The notes beneath the pieces were generated by a model that worked only from the letters and a program-made list of their open reading frames with translations, was not told where the DNA came from and did not search any database. A program made the position numbers and the translations under genes. Positions 30,476 to 36,177 of a DNA stretch of 46,043 nt are shown here, piece after piece; position 1 is the stretch's first letter, and each line of letters begins with the position of its first letter. Source of the DNA: Actinomycetota bacterium (GTDB lineage: Bacteria; Actinomycetota; Acidimicrobiia; Acidimicrobiales; Ilumatobacteraceae); contig VFZD01000004.1 of assembly GCA_016871295.1 (NCBI GenBank), positions 1-46,043 of the forward strand, read 5' to 3'.

Positions 30476-30829
30476 TCACCCCAACAGGGTGTAGGCGGGA
30501 TTCAAAACAACGGTGCGGTCGCCGACCTTGTGCGGCACGCCGTCGACCATTATGCATTTGCCGTGATCGACCCCGGGGATACTCTTGCGACCGCTGAAGA
30601 TAACGGTCGCTTCACCGGTGCCGTCGTTGATCACAAGTTCGACTGCGGGTATGCCGCTGCGGGGTTTGATGCGCATTCGCTTGATCTCGCCGGCGATCTT
30701 CGTGCGGGATCTGCAGACCGAGTCGGCGATAGGGACAAAGTCGTAATCTTTGAAGCGCTCGCACAGACGCTCGGCGTCGAGCGTCTGGTTGTCGGCGTTC
30801 AGTTTCTTGCCAAATGCCCTGATGCCCAT
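30476..30829 (-). CDS. OB-fold nucleic-acid-binding-type protein (Rv2694c-like)
   Basis: A 117-residue protein. Residues ~30-115 form an OB-fold with CRSRTKIAGEIKRMRIKPRSGIPAVELVINDGTGEATVIFSG and a closing GDRTVVLNPAYTLLG. The INDGTGEA pattern is that of tRNA_anti-type OB domains. The same small protein sits near ceoBC in mycobacteria. The ATG at 30829 overlaps the upstream lipoprotein gene's stop by one base (TGATG), so translation is likely coupled. Function unknown. Confidence 0.85.
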   Translation of the reverse strand: MGIRAFGKKLNADNQTLDAERLCERFKDYDFVPIADSVCRSRTKIAGEIKRMRIKPRSGIPAVELVINDGTGEATVIFSGRKSIPGVDHGKCIMVDGVPHKVGDRTVVLNPAYTLLG

Positions 30830-31398
30830 CAACTAGTCGCCAATCTGTTCAGTTCCTCCTTCAATTCTAAATCTGAAAGAACGCCAATTTTCGTCGTCAC
30901 AGATCCGTCTTTGCCGATGAACACCCAGGCGGGCTGGTAGGGCACATTGAAGCGGGCAAAAATCTCGCCGTCACCGTCGTTGATATTGGTGAACGAGAGA
31001 TTGTTTTCGATGACGAAATCTTGCATGTCACCGCCGCTGCCATTCCATGCCACGCCGGTGATTTGAATCTTTCCTTGCCAGGTCTTGTATGCAGCCTCGA
31101 CCGAGGCTGACTCAGATTTGCAGGTCCGTCAACCGGGCGCCCAAAACCAAAGTGCGAGCGGTTGCTGGGCCAAGACATTGGCGCTGACGAATTTTTCTCC
31201 ACTGAGCAGAGTCGCCTCAAAATCGCCGAGCATTTCGGTCTCGCTCGGCGAATCCTGGCCATACGGCTGTTGCGCTGTTTCGGTTTGCTCGGTCGGTGTT
31301 TTCGTATAGGTCGCCGAGCCGTCTGCGCCGCAACCAGCGAGCGCGATCGCCGCAACGGCAACGGACAAACTTCGCCAGAACTTTGAGCGGCATTTCAT
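30829..31398 (-). CDS. Candidate selenoprotein: TlpA/DsbE-like lipoprotein thioredoxin with UxxC
   Basis: Read through one in-frame TGA (31129-31131), the frame encodes 189 residues. Residues 1-23 are a lipoprotein signal ending in the lipobox LAGC (Cys23). A low-complexity linker leads to a thioredoxin fold: FEATLLSGEKFVSANVL, ALWFWAPG-[TGA90]-RTC93, SASVEAAYKTW, ITGVAWNG, the insert DMQDFVIENNLSF, the cis-proline YQPAWVF (Pro156) and IGKDGSVTTKIG. Homologues carry Cys at the TGA position (WAPxCxxC), so selenocysteine is the natural reading. Both halves are in the same frame, the C-terminal half is fully conserved in pattern, and the stop overlaps the next gene (TGATG), all against decay. 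A point-mutated pseudogene or sequence error remains possible. The role would be extracytoplasmic thiol redox. Confidence 0.75.
31092..31109 (-). promoter_or_regulatory. Putative bacterial SECIS hairpin
   Basis: On the mRNA, 19 bases after the UGA begins CAGCCUC-GGUC-GAGGCUG: a 7-bp perfect stem with a GGUC tetraloop. Immediately 5' is GAGU, where the G can pair with the C after the stem, leaving the U bulged. Bacterial SECIS elements read by SelB sit within the coding region about 16-37 bases after UGA, with a G(G)U apical loop and a bulged U below it; E. coli fdhF has a comparable loop. Here 26 bases separate the UGA from the first loop G. The fit is good, but a short hairpin in GC-rich DNA can occur by chance. 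Confidence 0.55.
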
Positions 31399-31620: not shown

Positions 31621-33021
31621 TTGGCAGACCAATTTGACCTAGTCGTGATCGGCGGTGGTCCTGGTGGCTACGCAGCGGCGTTTTATGCGGCCTCGACGGG
31701 CATGAAGGTCGCGCTGATCGAGCGCGACACGATTGGTGGCACATGTCTCAATCGAGGTTGCATTCCCGCCAAGGCGTTTCTCGAAACGGCGGCGGCCAAT
31801 AGACATGTCGCCCACGCGTCTGAGTTCGGTATTTATGCCAATTCGACGGGCATCGATTTCGCCGTGAGCCAAGCCAGAAAGGTTCGCATCGTCGACGGAC
31901 TCGTCAAGGGTCTCACCGGTCTCACCAAGTCGAAGAAAGTTGCATATTTTCTGGGCACGGGTTCGCTCGAGGCCGACCGAATTGTGAACATCGCGCTCGC
32001 TGACGGCTCTTCGAAAAAAGTTCAGGGCACGAACGTGATTTTGGCCAGCGGATCAGTGCCCCGTACGATCAAAGGTTTTCCGATCGGCGGCTCGATTCTC
32101 ACCTCCGACGAAGTTTTGATGTTGAGTGTGATCCCGAAACGCATCGCAATCATCGGCGGGGGAGCAATCGGTTGCGAGTTCGCCTCGACTTTTGCCGACC
32201 TTGGTGCGGCGGTGACGATCATCGAAGTCTTGCCAAAAATTTTGCCGGGGCTCGACCCCGATATCGCCAATGTGGTGGTCAAAACATTCGCCAAAAAGAA
32301 GATCAACATTCGCACCGGCGCCGTCGTCGCGGGCCAGGGCAAGCAACCCGACGGTTCTCTTCAGATCACCTTCGCCAACGGTGATCCCGTCGTGTGCGAT
32401 GTCGTGATCATGTCGATCGGTCGACGACCGTTCGCCGACGAACTCGGGCTCAAGGGCACTGCGGTCAAGGTCGACGACCGGGGTTTCGTCGACGTCGACG
32501 GATACTGTCGCACCAACGAGCCGAATGTTTTTGCGATCGGAGACCTGATCAATTCACCGCAACTCGCTCATGTCGCCTATGCCGAGGCGATTTTGGCTGT
32601 CAAACTAATGCGCGGCGAGAATGCGACGCCGATCAGTTACGACCGCGTGCCATGGGCGATCTACTGTCACCCCGAGGTGGCCTGGGCGGGGTTGTCTGAA
32701 GAACAAGCCCGCGCCGCAGGTCATGATGTCGTCGTCGCCAAACATCAGTTTCGTGCAAACTCGCGGGCGATGATCCTTGGAGAGACCGACGGGCTCGTGA
32801 AGGTAATCGCGAAGAAGAACAGCGACGGTTCGGCGGGCCAAGTCTTGGGGGTTCACATGGTCGGACCATGGGTCACCGAGCAGTTGGCGGCGGGTTATCT
32901 GGCCGTGAACTGGGAGGCTTCGGTCGAAGAAATCGCCGAGTTCATCATGCCCCACCCGAGTTTGAGCGAACTCTTCGGTGAGACCGTGATTTCATTGACG
33001 GGCAGAAGCATCAACGCATGA
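31621..33021 (+). CDS. lpdA: Dihydrolipoyl dehydrogenase (E3)
   Basis: A 466-residue flavoprotein disulfide reductase. It has the FAD motif VVIGGGPGGYAAAFYA, the redox pair GGTCLNRGCIP (Cys42 and Cys47), the NAD-binding IIGGGAIGCEFASTFADLG, the FAD contact NVFAIGDLI and the C-terminal catalytic histidine in MPHPSLSELFGE. It reoxidises the dihydrolipoyl arm of E2 using NAD+. The start is a TTG at 31621 (MADQFDLVVIGG) after GAGAG. The E2 gene follows after 36 bases. Confidence 0.97.
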   Translation: MADQFDLVVIGGGPGGYAAAFYAASTGMKVALIERDTIGGTCLNRGCIPAKAFLETAAANRHVAHASEFGIYANSTGIDFAVSQARKVRIVDGLVKGLTGLTKSKKVAYFLGTGSLEADRIVNIALADGSSKKVQGTNVILASGSVPRTIKGFPIGGSILTSDEVLMLSVIPKRIAIIGGGAIGCEFASTFADLGAAVTIIEVLPKILPGLDPDIANVVVKTFAKKKINIRTGAVVAGQGKQPDGSLQITFANGDPVVCDVVIMSIGRRPFADELGLKGTAVKVDDRGFVDVDGYCRTNEPNVFAIGDLINSPQLAHVAYAEAILAVKLMRGENATPISYDRVPWAIYCHPEVAWAGLSEEQARAAGHDVVVAKHQFRANSRAMILGETDGLVKVIAKKNSDGSAGQVLGVHMVGPWVTEQLAAGYLAVNWEASVEEIAEFIMPHPSLSELFGETVISLTGRSINA

Positions 33022-34509: not shown

Positions 34510-36177
34510 GTGTCTCGCGAGAATGCTGAAGTCGCGACGAAACTCAACGTGCGCTGGTTGGGCAAAGTGCCGTATCGCGAGGCGTTGGCGATTCAGTCGG
34601 CGATGTTCACCCACACGGGCATGCAGCATCTGTTGATGCTCGAACATCCGCATGTTTTCACATATGGGCCGAGTGCCGACCTCGAAAAAAATCTGAAGTG
34701 CGACCCCGCCGCGGTCGGCGCCGAACTGGTCAAGGTGAATCGAGGTGGCGACATCACTTATCACGGCCCCGGTCAATTGGTCGTGTATCCGATCTTGAAT
34801 CTGGTCGCAAAACACGGTGTTGGCGGCCCGGCCGATATGCGGGCCCATGTTTTTGGTGTCGAACAACTCGTGATCGACACGCTCCAACAATTGGGCGTGA
34901 AAAGTGTCGATCGTCTCGCCGGTTTCCCCGGCGTCTGGGTAGACACGGACAGCGACGAACCCAAAAAAATCTGTGCGATCGGGGTTCGGGTCTCGCGTGG
35001 TCGAACGATGCATGGTTTTGCCTTGAATGTCTCGACCGACCTGAGTTTTATGCGCGACCACATCGTGCCCTGCGGCATCGCCGAATTCGGCGTGACATCA
35101 CTTCATGAACTGGGTTTTGCTTTTTCGTTGCGCGAAGTCGCCGATGTCGTCGCGCGATTGGCCGCAGATCGCTTCGCCAATGGCAAATCAGATCGACATG
35201 ATGTCGCTTGGGGTGCCGCGCCGGTCGTCTCCTCTGACCAGTCGGCGCCAAAGCCGGCAGTGCGCACCAGCGTCGAGTACACCGCGCGCAAACCCGAGTG
35301 GTTGCGCCCCCATGTCAACCATGGCGCCGAGGTTTTGTCGACCAGAAAGACATTGCGTGATTTGAATCTGGTCACCGTGTGTGAACAGGCGGGCTGCCCG
35401 AATCTTTCTGAATGTTGGGCAGACGGCACGGCGACGATGATGGTGTTGGGCGAGCGATGCACGCGGGCCTGCGGTTTTTGTCTGATCGACACCCGCAGGC
35501 CGCTGGCTCCCGATGTCAACGAACCGATGCGGGTCGCACAAGCGGTCGCCAAAATGAGACTCGAACACGCGGTGTTGACGATGGTCGCCCGTGACGATCT
35601 CGCCGACGGCGGCATGGCACATGTCGCCAGTTGCGTGCGCGAGATTCGCGCGCGATCGCCGTTCACCCGCGTCGAAACCTTGATCTCCGACGCCAAAGGC
35701 TCGGACGCGCTGGAGATCTTGTTCGCCGAACGACCAGATGTTTTGAACCACAACATCGAGACCGTCGCGCGACTGCAGCGCGATGTGCGCCCATCGGCGG
35801 GTTATGCGCGAAGTCTGGGCGTGTTGGCCCGCGCTCGGGCGGCCGGCCTGACGACCAAATCGGGCTTGATGTTGGGTTTGGGCGAGAGCAAAGCCGAGGT
35901 CGAGGCGACGCTGATTGACTTGGCGAGCGTGGGCGTGCAAATCGTGACGATCGGTCAGTATCTGCGACCCTCGGCGCAACATTTGCCCGTCGTGCGTTGG
36001 GCCGACCCGCAAGAGTTCGTCTACTTCGCCAGGTTCGGCGAAAGAATTGGCATCGACCATGTCGAGGCGAGCCCGTTGACTCGGTCGAGTTACCACGCAA
36101 AGCAGGCGGCCGAGGCGACCGCGGCGCAAATCGCCAGCGAGCCTCCAGCGCCACAGTTCGTGAGCGTGCGATCATGA
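34510..36177 (+). CDS. lipBA: LipB-LipA fusion: octanoyltransferase / lipoyl synthase
   Basis: A single 555-residue frame. Residues ~10-215 are LipB: VNRGGDITYHGPGQLVVYP, the catalytic lysine in PKKICAIGVRVSRGRTMHG and the acyl-accepting cysteine in DHIVPCGI (Cys188). A ~35-residue linker leads to LipA (~255-555): the auxiliary cluster cysteines C291, C296 and C302 (VCEQAGCPNLSEC), the radical-SAM CTRACGFC (C317, C321, C324), FTRVETLISDAKG, NHNIETVARLQRDVRPSAGY, MLGLGES and the closing serine ligand in SPLTRSSYHAKQ. It would move octanoate from acyl carrier protein to E2 and then insert both sulfurs. Placement three bases after the E2 gene links it to its substrate. It starts at a GTG, and its stop overlaps the pirin start (ATGA). 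Confidence 0.95.
   Translation: MSRENAEVATKLNVRWLGKVPYREALAIQSAMFTHTGMQHLLMLEHPHVFTYGPSADLEKNLKCDPAAVGAELVKVNRGGDITYHGPGQLVVYPILNLVAKHGVGGPADMRAHVFGVEQLVIDTLQQLGVKSVDRLAGFPGVWVDTDSDEPKKICAIGVRVSRGRTMHGFALNVSTDLSFMRDHIVPCGIAEFGVTSLHELGFAFSLREVADVVARLAADRFANGKSDRHDVAWGAAPVVSSDQSAPKPAVRTSVEYTARKPEWLRPHVNHGAEVLSTRKTLRDLNLVTVCEQAGCPNLSECWADGTATMMVLGERCTRACGFCLIDTRRPLAPDVNEPMRVAQAVAKMRLEHAVLTMVARDDLADGGMAHVASCVREIRARSPFTRVETLISDAKGSDALEILFAERPDVLNHNIETVARLQRDVRPSAGYARSLGVLARARAAGLTTKSGLMLGLGESKAEVEATLIDLASVGVQIVTIGQYLRPSAQHLPVVRWADPQEFVYFARFGERIGIDHVEASPLTRSSYHAKQAAEATAAQIASEPPAPQFVSVRS

Follow-up and report, generated by a model that had tools for sequence, protein, structure and literature searches.

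A predicted selenocysteine-containing relative of actinobacterial DsbE/DsbF thioredoxins, encoded as a lipoprotein in Ilumatobacteraceae

Introduction

Selenoproteins of the TlpA-like superfamily with selenocysteine (Sec, U) in the first position of a UxxC motif were first seen as four Sargasso Sea metagenomic sequences assigned to cd02966 (PMC1088965), and a 2026 review cataloguing over 110 families of prokaryotic selenoproteins includes them as "thiol-disulfide isomerase-like" cd02966 UxxC proteins (PMC13188914). Compared by description only, these predicted proteins resemble the one presented in this study in superfamily and in the position of Sec. The Prx-like thiol:disulfide oxidoreductases (PF00578, UxxC or UxxU) and the Redoxin-family proteins (PF08534, UxxC) are listed in the same review as separate selenoprotein families (PMC13188914); their fold is broadly the same, the present protein likewise has its best Pfam match in PF00578, and it is the catalogue listing that sets them apart. 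Actinobacteria are not mentioned in the text of PMC1088965 as far as we found, and no report of selenoproteins in Acidimicrobiia or Ilumatobacter was found in the open-access literature. The initial annotation of the locus, which proposed a selenoprotein, had left room for a family not yet described with Sec; that part does not stand, as UxxC cd02966 proteins are already catalogued from metagenomes in both papers, but no actinobacterial assignment was found there. The well-supported addition made here is the placement of such a protein beside actinobacterial DsbE/DsbF and in Ilumatobacteraceae.

The nearest solved structures, by both sequence and fold, are those of Mycobacterium tuberculosis DsbE/MPT53 (Rv2878c; PDB accession number 1LU4) and DsbF (Rv1677; PDB accession number 3IOS), which are exported actinobacterial proteins with a thioredoxin fold, a WFWxPx[C/U]xxC motif, and a QP cis-proline loop, and which are described as oxidants. 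More distant proteins of the same fold are ResA, StoA, and CcmG (also called DsbE) of other bacteria, which are outward-facing thiol-disulfide oxidoreductases.

Results

The window analyzed in this study, i.e., the whole stretch of 46,043 nucleotides, contains on its minus strand a gene of 189 codons (31398-30829) that starts with ATG at 31398-31396 and encodes a lipoprotein thioredoxin of the TlpA/DsbE type related to MPT53 and DsbF. Its reading frame is interrupted by a single stop codon, the TGA of codon 90 (31131-31129), in the motif WFWAPG-[TGA]-RTC, and the true terminal stop (TGA, 30831-30829) shares one base with the ATG of the next gene; both points agree with the initial annotation, and the strand, which was absent from it, is now fixed. 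Standard ORF calling yields two fragments, 31398-31129 (89 amino acids) and 31053-30829 (74 amino acids). The downstream gene (30832-30476, minus strand), which encodes 118 amino acids and overlaps the true stop, gave no match in a Pfam search at 1e-5. The divergent upstream neighbor is lpdA (31621-33021, plus strand), which encodes a dihydrolipoyl dehydrogenase-like flavoprotein. Adjoining lpdA and an E2 acyltransferase, a 555-amino-acid frame (34510-36177, plus strand) carries an LplA-B_cat domain and the lipoyl synthase domains (LIAS_N and radical SAM), and is apparently a LipB-LipA fusion.

The N terminus of the read-through protein is a signal peptide (31398-31333) with the lipobox LAGC at residues 19 to 22 and a predicted lipidated Cys22, followed by a low-complexity linker that leads to the thioredoxin domain. 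The LAGC sequence satisfies the pattern [LVI][ASTVI][GAS]C of bacterial lipoproteins, most orthologues have a lipobox-like cysteine at the corresponding site, and the match of the signal region to LPAM_1 is below the cut-off. The Pfam model AhpC-TSA (PF00578) matches residues 58 to 168 across the TGA (E = 8e-10; 39.1 bits, cut-off 26), and the sequence also matches 1LU4 (1.7e-24), likewise across the TGA, and 3IOS (1.2e-16). In the AlphaFold model the pLDDT exceeds 90 over most of the domain, and the best Foldseek matches in the PDB are again 3IOS and 1LU4; sequence matches and model together show a predicted thioredoxin/TlpA fold. None of the NCBIfam models covers the protein above its cut-off (ResA, 37.6 versus 170 bits), and ResA, StoA, and CcmG, despite the shared fold, have CxxC and only 18-26% identity.

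The catalytic position taken by the TGA is occupied by cysteine in the non-Sec homologues of both alignments (A1 and A2), as had been proposed for the first active-site cysteine. The resolving cysteine of the UxxC motif, Cys93 (TGC, 31122-31120), is invariant in A1 and A2. An orthologue from a same-genus MAG (L038, genome G025) reads U-S-T-F, with phenylalanine in the place of the resolving cysteine. The cis-proline loop Q155-P156 (30936-30931), which is expected to face the redox motif, is invariant in A1, and in A2 Q155 is invariant and P156 nearly so. The protein differs from MPT53 and DsbF in having UxxC where they have CxxC; because of this replacement, it is classed from its predicted Sec as a Sec-containing relative of actinobacterial DsbE/DsbF and not as a plain DsbE. 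MPT53, in addition, is named as a soluble secreted antigen, whereas the present protein is a predicted lipoprotein.

Orthologues were found in 24 of the 28 other genomes of the genus, all 24 with TGA at codon 90, and the four genomes without one are only 57-82% complete. The same codon is TGA in many relatives from the family, the order, and the phylum, and neither TAA nor TAG occurs at this position among the matches listed. In nearly all genus loci the gene lies between lpdA and the gene for the 118-amino-acid protein. Across 24 genus loci, that of the window included, the segment 3' of the TGA is exactly 99 codons long without a single indel, and the median omega is approximately 0.11 after the TGA and 0.09 before it. 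A gene broken by a nonsense mutation and now decaying would give the two fragments that standard ORF calling yields, and a sequencing or assembly error from TGC or TGT is suggested by the fact that one base change restores the usual CxxC. The same TGA in independent assemblies of the genus, family, order, and phylum, followed by an intact frame under selection, excludes both: a decaying pseudogene is extremely improbable given the conserved codon, the lack of indels, and the lack of other stops at codon 90, and the probability of an error is close to nil, given also that the hairpin codons described below go with TGA and not with TGY. The view that both sides of the TGA are functional thus stands, with purifying selection on either side, the lipobox, and the conserved cis-proline loop, and the possibility of a decayed gene in close relatives is refuted by synteny and the same measures.

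Within the genus the orthologues end in TGA or TAA, and among more distant ones TAG is used as well. TGA is therefore an ordinary terminal stop of the selenoprotein gene itself and of many orthologues, as had been noted for other genes of the window, and the code is not globally reassigned. If codon 90 were decoded as another amino acid (Trp or Cys), because the code is reassigned or read-through is unspecific, the full-length protein would likewise result; this ordinary use of TGA, the complete Sec pathway of the genome (see below), and the coincidence of the TGA with a catalytic cysteine followed by a SECIS-like hairpin make such decoding highly improbable.

A bacterial SECIS hairpin, CAGCCUC-GGUC-GAGGCUG, is predicted at 31109-31092 with its loop at 31102-31099, and folding, frozen codons, occurrence in Sec versus Cys forms, and paired changes all bear on it. 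It begins nineteen nucleotides after the UGA, its loop lies at 26 nucleotides, its stem has 7 bp, and its minimum free energy (MFE) is -14.0. Published bSECIS criteria place the loop 16-37 nucleotides after the UGA, with G in the first two loop positions followed by G or U, a stem of 4-16 bp, and an MFE of -7.5 or lower (PMC13188914), and the predicted hairpin lies within all of these limits. Like the SECIS of E. coli fdhF, it is a stem-loop shortly after the UGA with an identical GGUC loop; the fdhF loop, on the other hand, is 18 nucleotides after the UGA rather than 26, and its stem has a bulged U. Compared with shuffled sequences, the single hairpin does not stand out in folding energy (z = -0.32), and the genuine fdhF element likewise gives z = 0.28. 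A loose hairpin model was often satisfied by synonymous shuffles and does not discriminate either, in part because the constrained codons were in the codon pool of the shuffles. Because neither measure discriminates, support for the predicted element is comparative, and the loose model was replaced by a codon-entropy test and a Sec-versus-Cys test.

In the 47 distinct Sec sequences whose residues +9 to +11 are S-V-E, serine is encoded by TCG and valine by GTC in every case (47/47 each) and glutamate by GAG in 45/47; the valine at +21 of the same sequences uses all four codons. A strict hairpin rule is satisfied by 64/69 Sec forms versus 6/90 Cys forms (p = 5e-31, only indicative as the sequences are related), and two of the five exceptions among the Sec forms (L019 and L066) fail solely through a G-U pair. 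Sec relatives with A-V-A keep the GGUC loop on a different stem (CUGC-GGUC-GCAG). A second hairpin geometry, with the loop at +34 and the loop sequence AGGU or AGUU, was observed in Sec relatives that belong to other families of actinobacteria (L182-L191 and L216-L230), and paired stem changes (G-C/A-T/T-A and C-G/T-A) are present in this group. By the strict rule, the Cys relatives almost always lack the hairpin.

The assembly to which the window belongs (1.52 Mb, 91% complete) encodes tRNA-Sec (selC) on contig 43 (63.7 bits, anticodon TCA), selA adjoining selB on contig 5 (E = 2.4e-86), and selD on contig 38 (E = 1.3e-95). Absence of selB/selC, by which the initial annotation proposed that its reading might fail, is thus refuted, with all four genes in the genome of the selenoprotein gene. 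A molybdopterin oxidoreductase on contig 22 (FdhA, formate dehydrogenase-like; L265:1729; approximately 17867-19138 of C22) has an in-frame TGA in SCNRT-U-HAPSVVGL, and the hairpin 3' of this TGA presents GGUC in the centroid fold. Because this is the Sec motif of formate dehydrogenases, the genome is predicted to have at least one further selenoprotein. A pattern scan of the genome for other UxxC genes having the loop CGGUCG gave 29 matches, among which only the gene at 31398-30829 is convincing. In a set of 100 relatives, the presence of a Sec form is associated with that of selB/selC (p between about 1e-6 and 1e-7); when only genomes at least 90% complete are counted, selB or selC is present in 33/33 with a Sec form and in 14/31 others (p = 2e-7, a value that ignores relatedness).

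Sec forms were found in the genus, in Ilumatobacteraceae, and in other families of the phylum. One genome (G043; L056, contig C154) has tandem Cys and Sec copies with the hairpin only in the Sec copy, apparently a Sec-to-Cys reversion after duplication, and several different Sec-containing paralogues in another (G086; L074, L077, and L078) suggest a lineage expansion. In quick trees, the named Cys forms (Mycobacterium, Lentzea, Streptomyces, and others) group together, and the mycobacterial relatives form a separate all-Cys clade; the search for named relatives back-translated Cys as TGY, and its 80 named matches are therefore Cys forms only. These trees suggested descent of the Cys DsbE/MPT53 clade from a Sec ancestor. 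That idea is unsupported, because a tree constrained to unite all Sec rows with the two local Cys rows gives a better fit and is retained by the AU test (p-AU = 0.73). A single Sec clade with two local reversions, and hence one origin of Sec, is possible on these alignments.

Discussion

The conserved TGA, the comparative evidence for the hairpin, and the Sec machinery leave us nearly certain that the gene encodes a selenoprotein in which the UGA at 31131-31129 is read as selenocysteine. The alignment of genus orthologues, with TGA conserved in every one found, supports the initial annotation in this respect. Termination is in general a competitor of Sec decoding. With a start, a signal, and a stop of its own, the first fragment could be a product of programmed termination at codon 90, either with the 89-residue lipopeptide as the functional form or with both forms made to sense selenium. 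The short form would be without most of the thioredoxin domain, and selection at the amino acid level is as strong after the TGA as before it; programmed termination is accordingly very unlikely.

With selenocysteine at codon 90, the UGA would be decoded by Sec-tRNA(UCA), for whose synthesis SelA would use selenophosphate supplied by SelD, and SelB would deliver this tRNA by recognizing the GGUC-loop hairpin a short way downstream in the coding sequence; genes for all these components are in the genome. The product would be exported, lipidated at Cys22, and, as the lipobox indicates, attached to the cytoplasmic membrane on its outer side, where Sec90 would attack as the nucleophile, Cys93 would resolve, and disulfides of exported proteins or small thiols would be exchanged via an Se-S intermediate. 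The most likely identity of the protein is a selenol-disulfide oxidoreductase that is anchored in the membrane and faces outward. Selenols attack faster than thiols, and Se-S bonds generally have a lower potential. This low potential would favor a reductive or repair role, whereas its nearest solved relatives, DsbE and DsbF of M. tuberculosis, are described as oxidants. A search of the genome (91% complete) for a DsbD_TM/CcdA or VKOR partner gave no match, though exported thioredoxin-fold proteins are present. Elsewhere in the window, a frame without an internal stop (15685-15221, minus strand; DFFFDIMCPYAYQTS) matches the DsbA family (PF01323), and its sequence points to a FrnE-like protein of the cytoplasm and not to a DsbA that is exported.

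It is somewhat probable that Sec-containing proteins of the DsbE/DsbF type make up a clade that is widespread and deep in Actinomycetota, possibly of single origin, and retained along with the complete Sec machinery even where the planktonic genome is small. If so, extracytoplasmic selenol-disulfide exchange would be a main use of selenium in these bacteria, and Sec would occasionally revert to Cys, as after a gene duplication. A second selenoprotein, beside formate dehydrogenase, adds to the reasons for a small genome to keep selA to selD. Gene callers split the gene at the TGA, and a conserved redox selenoprotein is likely missed in many aquatic actinobacteria. There are natural Cys/Sec pairs in this family, including tandem copies in one genome, and Cys members have solved structures, so that the contribution of selenium to extracytoplasmic disulfide exchange is directly testable.
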